64,000 nucleotides of DNA from Impatiens glandulifera (Eukaryota; Streptophyta; Magnoliopsida; Ericales; Balsaminaceae): contig NC_061862.1 of the NCBI RefSeq assembly GCF_907164915.1, positions 139,119,520-139,183,519 of the forward strand, written 5' to 3'. The position numbers were made by a program, and so were the translations under genes. The notes beneath the pieces were generated by a model that ran no database searches, was not told where the DNA came from, and was given only the letters and a program-made list of their open reading frames with translations. Positions 5,172 through 44,753 of this stretch are shown in pieces. Within the stretch, counting starts at the first letter, position 1. Each line of letters opens with the position of its first letter.

Positions 5172-5475
5172 GAGCGAAGCTTGCTTTACTTAATCGAGCG
5201 GTAACAGAAGAAAATTTCTTCCCCTATTCGAGCTTCTTTTAATTTACAAATATATTTATTTTTGAGCGAAACTTGCTTCACAAAATCGAGCGGTAACAAA
5301 AGAAGCTTTCTTCCCCTATTCGAGCTTCTTTTAATTTACAAATATATTTATTCTTGAGCGAAACTTGCTTCACATTATCGAGCGGTAACAAAAGAAGATT
5401 TCTTCCCCTATTAGAGGTTCTTTTATCTTTCAAAAATAATAATACATGAGCGAAGCTTGCTTCCTTCATTCTAAA
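5172..5475. repeat. 92-bp tandem repeat, just over three copies
   Basis: Unit starts (GAGCGAARCTTGCTTC) lie at 5172, 5264, 5356 and 5448, an exact 92-bp spacing. Each complete unit contains ATCGAGCGGTAACA, an AAGAA..TTTCTTCCCCTATT segment and a T-rich end. The fourth copy is partial. The array ends about 160 bp before the ATG of the downstream Ulp1-like gene, so it lies in what would have been its promoter. Confidence 0.9.
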
Positions 5476-9960: not shown

Positions 9961-11602
9961 TGTTGAAATAATTAACCACTGATATTTTGATGATGAAATA
10001 ACTTATGAGTTTTGATACAGGTGTATTGAAACAATATGTCATAAGACTTGGATCTAATGAGGGTCATTAGACCGATTTTGGCTTTCATTGCATAAAATTA
10101 GACTTACAGTCTAACTCATCGGAGTTAGACGTATAGTCTAATAGACGTGTAATTAGACGGATGGTCTAATAGATACACGGAATTAGACGTAAGTCTAATG
10201 CATAGAATTAGACGTACAATCTAACTCATCGGAGTTAGACTAGTCTAATGAATGCACGGAATTAGACGTAAGTCTAATGCATAGAATTAGACGTACAGTC
10301 TAACTCAGCGGAGTTAGACGTGTAGTCTAATGAATGCATAGAATTAGACGTACAGTCTAACTCAGCGGAGTTAGACGTGTAGTCTAATGAATGTAAAGAA
10401 TTAGACGTTAGTCTAATGAATACACAGAATTAGACGTAAGTCTAATATGTTTTTAATTAGACGGGTAGTCTAATTGATATTCGGAATTAGACGTACAGTC
10501 TAACTCATCGGAGTTAGACGTGTAGTCTAATATATTTGTAATTAGACGGGTAGTCTAATTTATGCGGAATTAGACGTGCAGTCTAACTCAGCGGAGTTAG
10601 ACGTGCAGTCTAACTCAGCGGAGTTAGACGTGCAGTCTAATAGAATGTGAAAGTTAGACATGCGTCTAACTCCTTCAGACAAGTCTGAGGTAGAACCGGA
10701 ATTAAACGTGCAGTCTAACTTAGTGGAGTTAGACGTGCAGTCCAATGGTTATTGGATAATTAGACGTGTAGTCTAATTAAGTGAAAGTTAGACGTGCGTC
10801 TAACTCCTTCAGACAAGTCTGAGGTAGAACCGGAATTAGACGTGCAGTCTAACTCAGTGGAGTTAGACGTGCAGTCTAATGGTTATTGGATAATTAGACG
10901 TGTAGTCTAATTAAGTGAAAGTTAGACGTGCGTCTAACTCCTTCAGACAAGTCTGAGGTAGAACCGGAATTAGACGTACAGTCTAACTTAGTGGAGTTAG
11001 ACGTGCAGTCTAATGGTTATTGGATAATTAGACGGGTAGTCTAATTAGTGAAAGTTAGACGTGCGTCTAACTCCTTCAGACAAGTCTGAGGTAGAACCGG
11101 AATTAGACGTGCAGTTTAACTCAGTGGAGTTAGACGTGCAGTCTAATGGTTATTGTAATTAGACGCGAGTCTAATTCTATTAGGCCAGGCGGTCTAATAG
11201 ACGTTTTTCTATTAGAAGAAGATGACTTATTTGATTAGACTGATTTTCACAATCCGTCTAACTGAAATACGTCTAATGCTCAGTTTAAGCAGTACGCTTG
11301 AATCTAGCATTTCACCTACCCACGTGCTATAGTTGTACCCTACTTCTGCTCCACTTTCTAGTGAAGATTAGTACAACAGCTATATGCATCCAATCAAGGA
11401 ATGTCACGTAAGAGAATTTTCCTCACATTACTTGTTTTGCAGGTACATCCCTGATGAAATATTCGGCGCACTACCAGTGATGTACGGCCACGATCCTTGT
11501 GCTCAGAACCTGCTGTGTACAATGGAGGCTTTCCAATGGAAGAGTGCCACGTATCATTCTTGAAGATTCGACCGTTAGCTCCTGCTCAGTATTTAACAAA
11601 TC
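9961..11602. mobile_element. Possible solo LTR (TGTTGAAATAATTAACC start) housing the hairpin array
   Basis: The sequence at 9961 starts with TG and resembles plant LTR starts (TGTTGAAATAATTAACC, then TTTTGATGATGAAATAACTT). Conserved-looking, LTR-like DNA resumes at 11250-11600 (CCACGTGCTATAGTTG, GAAGATTCGACCGTTAGC). The five bases before it (CTAAG) recur at 11603-11607, but the sequence just before that second copy does not end in CA, so the boundary is not proven. No polymerase or gag coding sequence is visible. This is inference only. Confidence 0.3.
10095..11190. repeat. Array of about 36 TTAGAC-loop-GTCTAA hairpins with a 134-bp higher-order repeat
   Basis: Short inverted repeats follow one another, each with a 6-bp perfect stem (TTAGAC/GTCTAA) and usually a 4-5-base loop (GTGCA, GTACA, GTGTA, GGGTA, GTAA). 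I count about 36 modules by eye, a few with one stem mismatch. From about 10640 the array is organised in a higher-order unit marked by GTCTGAGGTAGAACCGGAAT at 10683, 10817, 10951 and 11084, a period of 133-134 bp. Upstream the spacing is shorter and more variable. There is no open reading frame of note. Confidence 0.95.
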
Positions 11603-20667: not shown

Positions 20668-23600
20668 TTAGAACCTTCCTCCTATTCCTCTCTTGAGCTG
20701 TGCTGCTTTGTATTTGTCAAGCAAAAATCTACTACCCTCTTTCAGTGTTGCTTTCCTTCCTTCATCATAATTCCACAGCTCTGAGACTATGTATCTTCCA
20801 CTCGGGTTATAATCATTGATTTCGGCCAAAGCTGCTTTAACCGCCAAGTAAACATCTTCCCCAAGCTCCTCCCTTACTCCTTTCAGCTTCTCATCTTCCT
20901 CGTTTATCATTTCCTGTTGTTATTTACAAACCCAACACACATTAATGCATCTTATTATTTTAAAATGGTTTCAACTCATCCAAAAAAATATACAACACCT
21001 GTGGTTTGTCGTTCACAATCACCACTTTAAAAGGATGCCATTCGGGATCTCGCAAATACTCCTCCCATAGTGAACACAGTTCTGTAGCTCTATCATCTGC
21101 TGCTTCTTCGTCTTTGTATCTCTTAAGCATTGCCTCGTGGAAAGGCTTGTTATCCAGTTCTCCCATTCTTTTTACTCCAATCTTACCCCCTTTCGACACA
21201 TCTCTCAACCCCTGCAAAATTACAACTATCATTCTCTCTCCCACAAGATTGCTACACAGGATCATCACTTTTGCAATTATGCTATGGTTGAATTGCTTAC
21301 ATAACTGGTGCAACATAACCGACTTACATTTATGAGTTCTTTGCGTGCATCCTGCAGCTCATCGTTGCTTTTCCGCTCCTTCACTATTAAATGTTGATTA
21401 AGGGACTCTAAACTTTCAAGCTCCGATTCTTTTTCTCTCAACATTGAATGCATTCCGTCAACCTTTTGTAGGACTTCCAAGTCATCATCCCCCATATGCT
21501 TCATGACATTCAATGATCCTTTCATTTGTTCAATTTCAAGCTCTAGGGCTTGTTTTGCATCCAGTTGTTTCTCCAATAGAATTATTCTTTTGTGAAGATC
21601 CTCTTTTTTCCTCTGAAATAAAATGTTGCAGCAAAGAGAACATAGAGTAAAGCTGATATTTTTCTCAAAAAAAAATAAAATAAAGTAAACCTGACACAGA
21701 AATATAAAAAGCATTAGTCTGCAACTGCTGGTAACAATTCAATCACCTTCTGTTCTTCAGCAAGTTTCAGTACATTTTCATCAGCTTTTATTTGCTCAAT
21801 GGATGCCAATTGAAGAGAACTATTTCTCAAAGCATTCTGAAAGAACAAGCATGTCAAACAAAACAAAGTCATTAGAAAAGATTTACAAGACTCTGTTGCT
21901 CGAGATTGAAATTTACCATAAAGAAACTCTCGAAAAGAACAAATAGTTTTAGAAACCCGTAAATAAATAACAGAATTGCTAATGTTGCAATATTGGACAA
22001 AGAAATAACTAAAAAGGGCATGGCTGAAGTAAAAATGAACATGAAGCACTTCTTAAACTCATGCTTACAAATCTTATTTTAAATATCAAACATTTAAAAT
22101 TTATTGACATTATATTGCGGATTAACATGTGGAAAAGAAGATCATCTTCATCCACCCTTACACATTCAGGATGAGCAACCTCTATTGTGAGTCAGCATGA
22201 GAAGAATGAATCGCTCAATCGTTAAAAGTAGGGAGCCTCCATGGAACAAACACGTAACAATATTCAACAGAACAATAGTAATATACAAATTTCTGTTTCA
22301 ACAAGTATTATCACAAGTATATGTTATATATATATTGGCATAATTAAGTAGACGATGTCGTACCTTTTCAATATCTTCAGAAAGTTTCTTCCTTTCAGTT
22401 TCATTTTTGGCCTCACGCATCTCCAGTTGTTTTCCCCGTTCATCCAGCTCATGTTTATGAGATTCTACTTGTGATTTGAGTTTCTCATGGTCATTGAAAA
22501 TCCTCAGGAAATGATCTCTTGCACTCATCTGTATTTTTTTAATCTCTGGCAAGCAAATACAAGGTCAAGCACTAAAAAATATAAGTACGAGCACAAAAAG
22601 AGGATCAATTTTCCATAGCAACTGAAGGGATAAAACAGGCACTATAACCTACAACCTTCATTGTAGGAATGATGCAATTTGTCCTTCTCTGTCATTAATT
22701 TTTCCATTGTTTCTGCAGTCTCGCTGAATTTGCCTTTTATTTCTTCCAAGTGCCTATTCTTGACCTCAATAATGTTCGTCAAATTCGATACAAGTTTATT
22801 AGTTTTGCGGTGTTCCTCATCCATTAAATCTGAAATAGTTCTAAGATCTCCAATTTTTTTAAGGTGCTCCCCGATAATTCCGTTAGAATTGTAGTCATCA
22901 GCTCGAGCAACCCAACCATAGAGATCAGATGGTCCGTTGTTCATAAATAACTTCCAGTCCCTTTTCCCGTGGTGATCTGCCTCATAAGCCTTTTCAAATG
23001 ACATTGCATTGCTGAAACCAGACCAATCTTTGTTAAACTCCACGACAGCAGTTCCTGAGTGACCACGGAAATTCCAGAGTGGATGGACTCTTGTAGGATT
23101 AAATCCTCTCTTAATGAACTGGTCCCTTAGCTTTGACCCACTTTGCCCAACATAACGACCATCCTTCCTTTCAGTGGGAATGTTAACCACAATACCAATC
23201 CATGGCCAAACAAACATCTCTTCACGGTCACAGTCGGCAAGAGTATCATCTTCGGTTTTAGCTACAGGCTCTGAAGAGCCTCCTGCATCTACCCACATGT
23301 TAGCCTCCAAATCTTTTGTCAATCCCTGGTGATTTTCATTATCCCTTGCTGTTATTTCCCCTGAATTTCCATTTCCAATCGCTGCAAGAGTATCATCTTT
23401 GGTTTTAGCTACAGGCTCTGAAGAGCCTCCTGCATCTGCCCCCATGTTAGCCTCCAAATATTTTGTCAAACCCTGGTGATTAGCCTTATCCCTCACTGTT
23501 CTTTTCGCTGAATTTCCATTGCCAATCCCACTGGCGTGCTGTAAGAGTTCCTTGTACTGGTAATCTCCTTTCCTTTTCTTCGGACAATATGGACAAGTGA

Positions 23601-23703
23601 ATGCATCATTTGATGTTCTAACACGCTTAATCCCATTATTCAGTTCTTCGTAAGTTTTAACTTGATATTCCTCCATTTCAGATTCACTTATGTCAGAGTC
23701 CAT
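20668..23703 (-). CDS. FDM/IDN2-like XS-XH domain protein (RNA-directed DNA methylation factor)
   Basis: Six coding exons on the minus strand, all with GT-AG borders and continuous phase: 23703-22656, 22545-22364, 21836-21747, 21612-21328, 21211-20999 and 20913-20668. Together they give 687 aa. Domains: a zf-XS finger (CPYC at about residues 37-40, His in LLQHASG); an internally duplicated segment (60-108 and 109-157); an XS domain at about 163-275 (MFVWPWIGIVVNIPTE, FRGHSGTAVVEFNKDW); a long coiled coil at about 285-535; and a C-terminal XH domain from about 536 (KRMGELDNKPF, LWEEYLRDPEWHPFKV, SELWNYDEGRKATL). In the family, XS binds double-stranded RNA with 5' overhangs and XH mediates dimer formation. 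IDN2 and the FDM proteins act in the nucleus downstream of siRNA production in RNA-directed DNA methylation. No internal stop is seen, so the gene looks intact. Family members are usually about 630-650 aa; the excess matches the duplication. Which paralogue it is cannot be decided here. Confidence 0.93.
23237..23530 (-). repeat. In-frame 147-bp tandem duplication inside FDM-like exon 1
   Basis: Marker GCAAGAGTATCATCTT lies at 23237 and 23384, exactly 147 bp (49 codons) apart. The copies differ at a modest number of positions, roughly one in nine by eye. Protein copies span residues 60-108 and 109-157, both containing NHQGLTK.LEANM and DAGGSSEPVAKT.DDTLA. The duplicated part covers the second half of the zf-XS finger and the linker, but not the CPYC half. 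Confidence 0.93.
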
Positions 23704-24299
23704 TGATGTCTTTGTAAACTTCCCAAATAAAATAAACAGGAATTAGGACTCAATATATAGTAATTCTTAAGACAATGGTAAATAAACTCAACAATGAAAA
23801 TGAGAAAATAATGAGCATTCTGGTGAATCTCTGCCTTATACCAAACATTTTAATCCATGAAGAGCCAAAATGCAAACTGGTATTACTATCACTAAACAAG
23901 TATGAGTTTTCAAGAAATATACACAACCCAACACATATCTCATCATTTCCCTATTTCTGAACTAAATCCATACAGAAATGCTGAAATTCGAAATTTTAAA
24001 AAATCTTCAATGGAGACTGAAGATCATACTTCCAAACTCTGCATATAATGAACAAAAATCAAAATATTGTTGCTTCTTACAACTACTCATCGAAGATCGT
24101 AAGCGGCAGAAAGAGGATGAACAAAGACAACACATGCAAACTGCATTCACAAAATCTTAAAAAAAAAAGAAAACCCACCAAATTTTCAGGCAAATGAAAC
24201 CAAACAAAAGAAGAATCCAAACCCAATACTGTAAAATGAAAATTTTGAAGACAAAAACTTGTTTCTGAAAAAACCTTGACCTAATCAAACATAGATTTC

Positions 24300-40849: not shown

Positions 40850-41699
40850 TCAATAAATTATGCACGTGAGTAAGTAACGTAGAGAGAGATCATGTATAGG
40901 TGATCGTAGTATCATATGTTTGATTTTAACGTGAATATTGATAAACTATTCACGTGAGTTACTAACAAGTAATGTTAATGGGAGATCGTGTATAAATGAT
41001 TAAAGTACTATCAACAAATAAGTTCAGATTTAACGTGAAAGCCGACAAACTTATGCATGTGAGTTACCAATAAGTAACGTTTAAGGCGATCATGTATAAA
41101 TGATCGTAGTTCTATCAAAATATATGTTTAACGTAAAAGTTGATAAATTTATTCACGTAAGTTACTAATAAATAACGTTGAGGGAGATCATGTATAAATG
41201 ATCATGGTATTATCAATAAATTTAACTTGAAAGTTGACAAACTTATTCACATGAGTTACTAATAAATAACGTTGTGAGTTACCAATAAGTAACGTTTAAG
41301 GCGATCATGTATAAATGATCGTAGTTCTATCAAAATATATGTTTAACGTAAAAGTTGATAAACTTATTCACGTAAGTTACTAATAAATAACGTTGAGGGA
41401 GATCATGTATAAATGATCGTGGTATTATCAATAAATTTAACGTGAAAGTTGACAAACTTATTCACATGAGTTACTAATAAATAACGTTGTGAGTTACCAA
41501 TAAGTAATGTTTAAGGCAATCATGTATAAATGATCGTAGTTCTATCAAAATATATGTTTAACATAAAAGTTGATAAACTTATTCACGTAAGTTACTAATA
41601 AATAACGTTGAGGGAAATCATGTATAAATGATCGTGGTATTATCAATAAATTTAACGTGAAAGTTGACAAACTTATTCACATGAGTTACTAACATGAAA
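40850..41699. repeat. Tandem satellite-like array with GATCAT-GTATAA-ATGATC palindromes (left part)
   Basis: The repeat contains GATCATGTATAAATGATC (6-bp stem, 6-base loop), a gap, TTAACGTGAAAGTTGACAAA, CTTATTCAC.TGAGTTACTA and AATAACGTT. Palindromes lie at 41098, 41186, 41303, 41401, about 41518 and about 41616. Alternating steps of about 98 and 117 bp give a dimeric unit of about 215 bp. The array resumes at 44241 on the other side of the CACTA-type insertion. Confidence 0.9.
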
Positions 41700-41939
41700 C
41701 ATTCACTAGTAAAAAGAGGGTCTTTCGCGACCAAAAAAATTATTGGTATAAGGATCAATTGACATTATAAATATAACACCGATTAGTTTGAAACCAATCG
41801 GTATTATATTCATAATATCGATTGTTCTTTATATCAATCGGTGAACGATTGTATATAACACTAATTGGCTTAAAAACCAGTCGGTACAACCCCATAAAAC
41901 ACCGCAAAATAAATGTCGCCATCTTTTGGCGCTTTTATG

Positions 41940-42088
41940 CAACATTATTTATGTCATACATTTATAAGGTGAAGGGGAAGAATAACGCATCTCTCTATCA
42001 TTGCATTTGGGGAAAGGTTTCAAGGCCTCATGGAAACTGCGGTATTGTTCGTGCTAAGTTCAAATCCAACATTCCCCCTAAATATATG
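41940..42088 (+). pseudogene. Captured exon of ribosomal protein eL33 (RPL35A)
   Basis: The translation includes SYIYKVKGKNNASLYHCIWG, KVSRPHGNCGIVRAKFKSN and IPPKYM. This matches the central conserved part of large-subunit protein eL33/RPL35A (family pattern: AYIYKAK, CIWGKVTRPHGNSG, VRAKFTSNLPPK). The exon ends at a perfect donor, GTAAGT, at 42089. The N-terminal third and the last few residues (the RVRVFMYPSNI end) are missing, so it cannot make a ribosomal protein. It lies inside a CACTA-type element, which indicates capture. Because a donor and intron-like DNA follow, the capture was at the DNA level rather than through spliced mRNA. Confidence 0.88.
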
Positions 42089-42485
42089 GTAAGTAATTGT
42101 ATACCTAATGAATTTTAATTTCATTAGACTTGAATATGTGAGAAAAAGAAAAGTATAATGTAATTTTTATATGAAATGAGATAAAGGGAGTACATGTTAA
42201 CACTACTGGTGTTGTCCCTCCATTGTGATGATTTCATATCAAAAACATGAAGTCAAGTTTCTCAAATGAGTTTTGGAGTCTTTTATTCTGTTTTGCAATG
42301 AAATTCCGAAATTTATTTACAATCTATTATTTTCTTATGAAGCTAGTTAATTGGTTAGTTTTCTTGTAAAAGTATGTTGTTGGGGTTAATTTGCAGTTAG
42401 GATTGAGATGGCTTATGTTCTCTCTGCAATGAGCGATAGTTTAGTTGTTACCTTGTTTCTAAACGACAAACCTTCTGTTGCATCT

Positions 42486-42880
42486 TTTGTTGCACTATTT
42501 TGATTTATTGGCATTATTTTGGGCTTGCTGCCTTATGTGAACAATGTTGGAAATATGGGCGGATTTATATCGGGTTTTCTTTTGGGATTTGTGCGGCTGT
42601 TTAAACCTCAACTTGGGGAAGTGACTTAAGGAAAAGGTGCTTTCTTTGAGTATGAAGTAAAATGTTCTTTGAGTCTTGGATCCTTTGTTTACTTTTGTTT
42701 TTGTTTTTCTATATGATTTAGGTTTGCTTGTTGTGTGCATAATGGTGGGGACTATTGTGGCTGTTTCTTGTGGTGTTAATATAAGGGAGTATTGTTGGTG
42801 GTGTAAATATTTAGAATGTGTTCCTTCCAAGTGGTGGAGATGTAATGGAGATCAAATGAAGTATGAGGTATTGATATAGT
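42486..42880 (+). pseudogene. Captured fragment of a plant rhomboid-like protein gene
   Basis: One frame reads FIGIILGLLPYVNN, GNMGGFISGFLLGFV and RLFKPQLGEV, then GAFFEYEVK. A second frame (about 42718-42862) reads VAVSCGVNIREYCWWCKYLE and CVPSKWW. This is the C-terminal third of plant rhomboid-like (RBL) membrane proteins, with the last helices and the YC.WC.Y..CVP tail. Stops at 42501-42503 and 42627-42629 and the frame difference show decay or an intron. At the position of the catalytic His motif (AHIGGF in active members) the fragment has NMGGF, as in proteins presumed inactive. It was captured in the same orientation as the eL33 piece. Confidence 0.8.
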
Positions 42881-43367
42881 GATTTTGGGATTAATAATTA
42901 ATACATGATTGAAAATGTTTATTCTAAATATGCATATGGGTGTGAGTACATGGCAATTGACACTGATTTGCATGAGTAATAGTGATAGGTATATGGACTC
43001 TCCATTCACTAATATATTGCAATCTAGAGTCTAGGATTTGTGTGATATGATATGATCCTCTCCTTGTTTAGGATTCTTCCTTTTCTTTCTTTCTTTGTAT
43101 AAGAATTTGTGACAAATGACATGCTCTTAGGTTATACAGGAGTTTAATTTGGCCATATACAACAGATTTATATAGTTAATGACATATAAATTAGACAAAA
43201 AAAAATAATATTATTTTATGATGTCTTGATTGCTTGTTCTACCTCTTCATTTGATGAAGATGATCAAAAATAAGAAGAAGATTAACCAGCCATAAGAAAA
43301 AGATTTTTTTTATTTGTAAAAAGTCTATGGTGATTGGTTAAATTACCAATCGTCATTGCCTTACTAA

Positions 43368-43943
43368 GAGCATCCCCATCCTTGTATCCATACATAGATA
43401 CAAATATGTGTCACATCAGCAGCCACATCACAAATAAATTATATCTCTCAATTTATATCTCTATTCCCCAACCATCTCAAGTACAATTGTGGTCCCACCA
43501 TCCACATCATCTAATTCATACAATATTTTTTAATTCAATAATTCAAGTAATCTTGTTTTATTTTTTATTATATTAATTTGTTTAAATTAATAAAACTAAT
43601 ATTTATAAATTATATTAAAAAATTAAAAAAAATCAATAATTTTTAAAAATAATTTAGGAAATTATCATCACAATAATACTTGAAAAAAATAGACTACTAA
43701 ATCATATTTTGTTAAATAAAAAATTAAATAAAACGGTTTATTTTTTAAAATTTTTAAATGTTTATTTTTTTTGTATAAAAAAGTGGGGGTGGGACCACTT
43801 TTTTTGACTTTTTCTCATTTGTACCCAGTAGCAAAACTTTGCTACTCAATTTTTTCTCTCCTGATTTGTACCCATCTCCCCATTAGTGTACCCAGGTACA
43901 AATTTTGTCCACATTAGATTTGTACCTACCGATGGGGATGCTC
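43368..43943. mobile_element. PIF/Harbinger-type (Tourist-like) MITE, TAA target duplication
   Basis: Starts GAGCATCCCCATCC and ends GATGGGGATGCTC. It is flanked by TAA at 43365-43367 and 43944-43946, the 3-bp TWA duplication of PIF/Harbinger elements. It is 576 bp long with no coding sequence. It is nested in the CACTA-type element, so it inserted later. Its borders are clean. Confidence 0.9.
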
Positions 43944-44240
43944 TAAGCATCACCTTTTAACCAATCGTCATAGCCTTCCTGAGCAGCACCGATTGGTTGA
44001 GTAAGCAGCACCGATTGGTTGAGTAACCAATTGTTATCACCGGTTGGTTATGAACCAATCGTTGTTACCGTAGAGGGTAACACCGAGAGAGAACTTTCCC
44101 TTGATGCCTTATAAAAGAGAATAGGATTCTACCGATTGAGACCGATTCGAGTAAAACCAATCAGTATAGGGTAATACCGACAGGTAACCATGGTAGTATT
44201 GATTGGTAAACCAGTCGGTATAGACCATTTTTTTACTAGT

Positions 44241-44753
44241 CATATAGAGCGATCATGAATACATGATCGTGGTACCATCAACAAATAAGTTTAACATGAA
44301 AATTTACAAACTTATTCACATGGGTTATTAACAAGTAACATTTAGAGCGATCGTGTATAAATGATCGTGATACTATCAATATATATATTTATTTTAACGT
44401 GAATGTTGACAAACTATTCAAATGAATTACTAACAAGTAACGCTTAGAGCGATCACGTATAAATGATCATGATACTATCAATATATAATTTTTTTTAAAA
44501 AATTAAAAAAGAACTAACATGACACCCCGCAACTATGGCCCTCCGCTTAAACTCACAATATATATGTTTATTTTAACATGAATGTTGACAAACTATTCAC
44601 GTGAGTTACTATCAAGTAGCATTTAGAGTGATAATGTATAAATGATCGTGGTACTATCAACCGATAGGTTTAACATGAAAATTAGTAAACTTGTTCACGT
44701 GAGTTATTATCAAGTAACATATGATGATCATGTATTAATGATCGGAGTACTAT
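44241..44753. repeat. Tandem satellite-like array, right part
   Basis: Continuation of the array at 40850-41699, with the same landmarks (GATCATGAATACATGATC, TTAACATGAAAATT, ATTCACRTGRGTTA and AAGTAACATTTAGAGCGATC). These units are more diverged than those on the left. A short unrelated segment (ACATGACACCCCGCAACTAT and following) interrupts it near 44515-44560. Confidence 0.85.

Follow-up and report, generated by a model that had tools for sequence, protein, structure and literature searches.

The Tpn1 family of the Japanese morning glory is a CACTA family with captured host sequence. In the Pack-CACTA elements several donor loci per element are known, and neighbouring insertions that have compatible ends and fuse are the explanation given for the capture (PMC8903248). 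The soybean CACTA element Tgm-Express1 sits in a host intron, contains pieces of five genes and yields chimeric transcripts (PMC1947982). Here we describe an element in a window of Impatiens glandulifera DNA (the whole stretch of 64,000 nucleotides that was analysed; C1:139119520-139183519, contig NC_061862.1 of assembly GCF_907164915.1), which shares with Pack-CACTA the CACTA ends, the lack of a transposase, the internal host-gene DNA and the several donors. The difference is that the fusion in Pack-CACTA takes place between compatible ends, whereas here one cargo is found in two families with dissimilar ends and the window copy is a singleton. In common with Tgm-Express1, the element is of the CACTA type and has exons and introns of several unrelated genes; the genes are other ones, and Tgm-Express1 lies in a host intron, with its chimeric transcripts shown. 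Pack-CACTA elements with multi-gene cargo are already known, and the notable part of the present case is the sharing of cargo between families. In most accounts every Pack-type family has captured gene fragments for itself, and here the cargo appears to have changed or outlived its vehicle. No report of cargo shared between transposon families was found in the open-licence literature, nor was any description of a CACTA element with rhomboid cargo found there.

Anatomy and insertion site of the element

The element spans 41704-44241 and is a decayed non-autonomous Pack-CACTA element inside a tandem array with a unit of about 98 bp, which repeat search and empty-site alignment placed at 40871-41692 on the left and 44245-44498 on the right. 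It is bounded by the target-site duplications ATT (41701-41703) and ATA (44242-44244), which are equal in two of three bases. When one 3-bp copy is removed, the flanks align across the join to the array units with scores of 112 (left) and 115 (right), which gives the empty site. The left terminus is CACTAGTAAAAA and the right terminus is ...TTTTTTTACTAGTC; the terminal letters of the span are 5' CACTAGTAAAAAGAGGGTC and 3' GACCATTTTTTTACTAGTC, and the terminal inverted repeat matches in 22 of 27 bases. The outermost right base is C, whereas it is G in all six distinct loci with an intact right end (nine relatives, representing eight distinct loci, were retrieved).

The left CACTA terminal region (41704-41947, forward strand) comprises the CACTAGTAAAAA end and ACCGATTGGT-type motifs. 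The right one, also in forward orientation, starts at 43186-43364, where related sequence is found from about 43204 at C3:50245455, and continues with subterminal motifs at 43947-44241. Between its two parts a nested MITE with GAGCATCC ends (43368-43943) was recognized by genome search and flank alignment, together with its TAA duplications at 43365-43367 and 43944-43946. The subterminal motif ACCAATCGGT/ACCGATTGGT, counted with at most one mismatch, occurs four times in the left 237 bp, six times in the right 340 bp and not at all in the core, in both orientations and in clusters, as compared with shuffle means of 0.00 for the left terminal part and 0.03 for the right one. A chance resemblance is ruled out by these shuffles and the empty site. 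A six-frame Pfam scan found no transposase family inside the element, and an Rfam search of the window gave no match. Two further observations concern the surroundings: the nested MITE (ends GAGCATCCCCATC) is very abundant, with 330 candidates in the genome and 92–99% identity for the copies listed among the 40 scored, and the array has a higher-order unit of 215 bp (98% matches) as well as a palindromic motif, GATCATGTATAAATGATC.

In the genome searched (653.9 Mb, 1110 contigs), the query 41704-43364 detected at least 15 other loci with similarity to parts of the left 244 bp, none of them extending beyond 41947, where the cargo starts (40 of 117 candidates scored). For the right 295 bp there are at least 53 matches, the window itself counted (40 of 55 candidates scored). 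Among the same 40 of 117 candidates there was neither a second copy of the whole element nor another locus joining these ends to this cargo, that is, the ends are multi-copy and the whole element is single-copy, with its empty site deduced from the array units. One pair of such ends on C4 (L054) bounds 8.7 kb holding a TNP2 piece (PF02992, E 5.4e-32); its left end is 84% identical to that of the window element over 242 columns and its right end 64% over 333, and its outermost bases are decayed. A second long relative of the ends (L055) contains ORFs. The first-pass annotation had proposed a member of a Pack-CACTA family at 41703-44240. The element is real and lies one base further on; its CACTA ends, the motifs in both orientations and the lack of a transposase are borne out. 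The annotation would have been refuted had its ends had no second genomic copy, which is not the case. The Pack-CACTA type holds as well, but among the 40 candidates scored the element itself has no second copy and so does not form a multi-copy family.

Cargo pieces and their donor genes

The cargo begins with a piece of the gene for ribosomal protein eL33 (RPL35A) at 41950-42104 on the forward strand, identified by Pfam, PDB and host-gene alignment. It consists of the 3' portion of an exon (46 codons, 41951-42088), the donor GTAAGT (42089-42094), which is the host's own donor, and about 10 bp of further intron. The exon matches PF01247 (E 5.5e-15) and corresponds to residues 54-99 of eL33 in PDB 8azw, and a protein search with the piece returned no candidate. 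Over 41950-42104, 137 of 154 bases agree with the host gene L039, one of the eL33 host loci L039-L043. An additional eL33-like exon fragment, 83% identical, lies at C4:5981870-5981963 and could be another captured piece or a pseudogene.

The next part of the cargo (42092-42301, forward strand) was traced by genome search and alignment to a single locus on C9 (L064), from which the pieces 42092-42169, 42167-42199 and 42225-42301 derive with internal jumps, plus a 27-base stretch between the last two (about 42206-42232). This host gene, which we take to be ERMP1-like from its M28 domain and from what ERMP1 proteins are like, shows an M28 peptidase domain with E 2.9e-12 when three exons are joined; seven of eight single host frames had no Pfam match and the eighth gave M28 below the cut-off. 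A PDB search with one of its exons and an NCBIfam search with the joined exons had no matches. Between the eL33 match and the ERMP1 match there is an overlap of 13 bp, possibly a microhomology.

Alignment further identified a piece of RHOMBOID-like 8 (RBL8) at 42359-43115, also on the forward strand, which begins within a host intron, retains the acceptor TTTGCAG (42390-42396) and, interrupted by stops and deletions, covers the exons as far as the 3' end. In Pfam the rhomboid match is below the curated cut-off (E 0.0038), while the match to the RHOMBOID-like 8 protein P0121 of Impatiens glandulifera has E 1.2e-30. The host gene is L020 on C2 (673 of 727 ungapped bases); it matches P0121, with identity by eye over the stretch compared, and aligns to residues 1-386 of Actinidia RBL8 in three blocks. 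Another ERMP1-like piece in the same orientation follows at 43144-43185 (34 of 42 bases). Since the ERMP1 sequence before RBL8 ends at host coordinates 5387-5389 and resumes at 5401 after it, RBL8 sits inside ERMP1 sequence. No donor was assigned to 85 bp of forward-strand cargo (42302-42358 and 43116-43143), which alignment also finds in the second CACTA family described below.

The cargo is thus one composite of three genes, namely an eL33 exon, the ERMP1-like gene for an M28 metallopeptidase and RHOMBOID-like 8 within ERMP1, with all pieces in the sense orientation. As intron sequence is included, the cargo was copied as DNA. Both pieces named by the first-pass annotation, eL33 and a rhomboid, are real, and their alignment to the parental genes with introns agrees with the intron-like flanks that it had described; the third gene and the nested MITE had escaped it.

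A second CACTA family with the same cargo

The ERMP1 part with its neighbour (42105-42358) was found in the window, in 16 other loci and in the C9 host gene (19 of 19 candidates scored), and the RBL8 part (42359-43185) in the window, in ten other loci and in its host gene (12 of 12 scored). Because nine loci are common to both lists, there are 17 other non-host cargo loci. The ten RBL8-bearing loci (L010-L019) belong to a second CACTA family of about 3.2 kb with the ends CACTACAAC.../...GTTGTAGTG (in fuller form CACTACAACAAAATATA...TTTTTTGTTGTAGTG; length 3114–3318 bp). Both ends are present in eight of the ten, seven of which have a perfect 3-bp duplication, and the remaining one has an altered right end. 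The other two, C1:133273 and C1:143905, show the right end only, and the compared sequence of C1:143905 stops short of the left end. Seven loci, called A-type, have the ERMP1 part and no RBL8 match; the CACTACAAC left end is present in three of them and the ends of the other four were not reached. Altogether at least one CACTACAAC-type end occurs at 13 of the 17 loci, the rest being these four, and no composite without CACTA ends was seen among the loci whose ends were reached. The first-pass annotation had regarded adjacency of the two gene pieces in a context without CACTA ends as contrary to its reading; they do stand together elsewhere, but in a CACTA family with different ends.

The second family is multi-copy, has the subterminal motif GCGTTGGCAA and carries extra sequence on both sides of the composite. 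Its eL33 piece was found at C1:133274081-133274147 (86% identity to the eL33 query; eight of eight candidates scored), and eL33 remnants are visible in the alignments of six copies. The six frames of one CACTACAAC copy gave nothing above the Pfam cut-off. The composite without RBL8 occurs in the A-type members L029, L030, L036-L038 and L065, and six of seven A-type frames had no Pfam match. In L065 (C8:15357600-15364600) the ERMP1 sequence is followed by other cargo and then by the GTTGTAGTG end. This other cargo, which begins where RBL8 stands in the other subtype, includes SWI3A-like pieces, as judged by eye, and a RING finger (E 1.7e-7 for zf-RING_4 in Pfam) whose sequence resembles cellulose synthase-like D. 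The growth of a composite is illustrated here, with RBL8 inside older ERMP1 sequence and the sister subtype having other cargo at the same point. Furthermore, the young CACTACAAC copies (L010-L015, L017 and partner loci) are about 92–99% identical and most have intact ends and duplications, which points to recent movement of this multi-gene Pack-CACTA family; its young copies are better suited to transcript work than the window copy.

The joins were compared in L024, L010 and L016 and, for the composite without RBL8, in L029 and L038. The ERMP1 jumps 3907->4080 and 4257->5312 recur in the compared copies (L029 has an internal gap there, and L016 jumps from 3884), and both RBL8/ERMP1 joins (5387-5389 to RBL8, and RBL8 to 5401) recur in L024, L010 and L016. 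The eL33/ERMP1 join is also present in the second family, where it is shorter by about 11 bases than its counterpart in the window element; in C3:61951 no ERMP1 stretch adjoining this join could be found. The ends of the two families are unrelated in spite of the same composite and joins: in the comparison with one CACTACAAC copy, the best match between the ends had E 0.21, and neither family's motif occurred in the ends of the other at up to one mismatch.

History of the composite and its coding potential

The same order and joins in both families mean that the composite was formed once. With high confidence we therefore regard the window element as a decayed Pack-CACTA whose single composite, formed once, now occurs in two CACTA families that are unrelated in their ends, and its pieces probably arrived ready-made. 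This replaces the capture of two unrelated gene pieces by the element itself that had been put forward at first. Separate captures of the eL33 exon and the rhomboid piece would explain that two gene pieces are readily recognized; they are contradicted by the same order and joins in the second family and by a third gene between and around the pieces, and we give them next to no credence.

A tree rooted on the host genes places the window copy as the sister of the CACTACAAC copies as a whole (ultrafast bootstrap 83%, and 77% with RBL8 alone). In the alignment used, the window cargo is 87–89% identical to the copies that bear RBL8, and its identity to the host segments is 88%. The window copy retains RBL8 sequence absent from four aligned copies and eL33 sequence absent from six, and the aligned CACTACAAC copies retain RBL8 sequence absent from the window copy. 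The tree and these private segments rule out that the window copy is the direct parent or the direct offspring of the examined CACTACAAC copies. Passage between elements, with a stem CACTACAAC element as the source or in the reverse direction, is most likely, and it is favoured by the fact that, among the loci whose ends were reached, the composite was confined to CACTA-type DNA; a lost third source of the composite is possible. One form of such a source would be a chromosomal eL33-ERMP1-RBL8 locus, later lost, from which both families captured independently. The sister position of the window copy would fit it, and so would the private donor pieces on both sides, which look like two samples, but the ERMP1 and RBL8 searches, with all candidates scored, gave only host genes, CACTA-type loci and the four loci with unreached ends, and we consider such a locus rather doubtful. 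It is also conceivable, with a slightly better claim though still tentatively, that a plain CACTAGT-type element was first in the array and that its inside was replaced on site by interrupted gap repair copying a CACTACAAC element, the hybrid having never moved. The hybrid is indeed single-copy, the target duplication belongs to the ends only and replacement cargo is plentiful elsewhere in the genome; nothing specific speaks against such a replacement, except that at the identities given above there is no copying tract from a present-day copy.

We lean towards the view that the cargo was handed between CACTA families as a unit, cargo and terminal-repeat lineages evolving as separable modules. 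The eL33-ERMP1-RBL8 composite would have been assembled within one CACTA element and have entered another later, either when neighbouring insertions fused or when gap repair switched templates, and the transposase may have been supplied in trans by a TNP2 relative. Several points tell against the carriage of a single composite by two families as set out above: the two copies of the target duplication are not identical and the element's last base is not that of its relatives; there is a single full copy, so that the case for its moving as a unit comes from one site; the window cargo stands beside, not within, the CACTACAAC copies in the tree, each side with private sequence; two of the ten RBL8-bearing loci have the right end only; and the ERMP1 piece at 43144-43185 is short and weak, in addition to the 85 bp of cargo without a donor.

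A functional chimeric gene or a source of regulatory RNA under selection, for which the retained splice signals, the sense orientation of every piece and, for each of the three host genes, identical runs longer than 24 bases could be adduced, seems very improbable from the sequence. Against it, 14 of 46 codons of the eL33 exon differ from the host gene L039, 11 of them changing the residue, and the dN/dS of 0.70 (NG86) would indicate little sign of constraint on this very short piece, while the RBL8 part is broken by stops and deletions. Splicing from the eL33 donor to the RBL8 acceptor is predicted to reach a stop after 11 codons; given this early stop and the broken RBL8, a chimeric protein is unlikely. 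Small RNAs matching the three host genes are possible in view of the identical runs. The cargo probably has no effect on the host as protein, and chimeric or small RNA is the most that it would supply.

Two other features were observed in the window. On the minus strand at 20960-23742 there is an IDN2-like host gene with an XS domain, whose closest named proteins are from Nyssa, Cornus and other asterids (about 60%) and which has a 147-bp tandem duplication at 23237-23527 within the open frame; IDN2 acts in RNA-directed DNA methylation. A dense TTAGACGTGCAGTCTAA-type repeat array with a 134-bp unit occupies 10096-11176.
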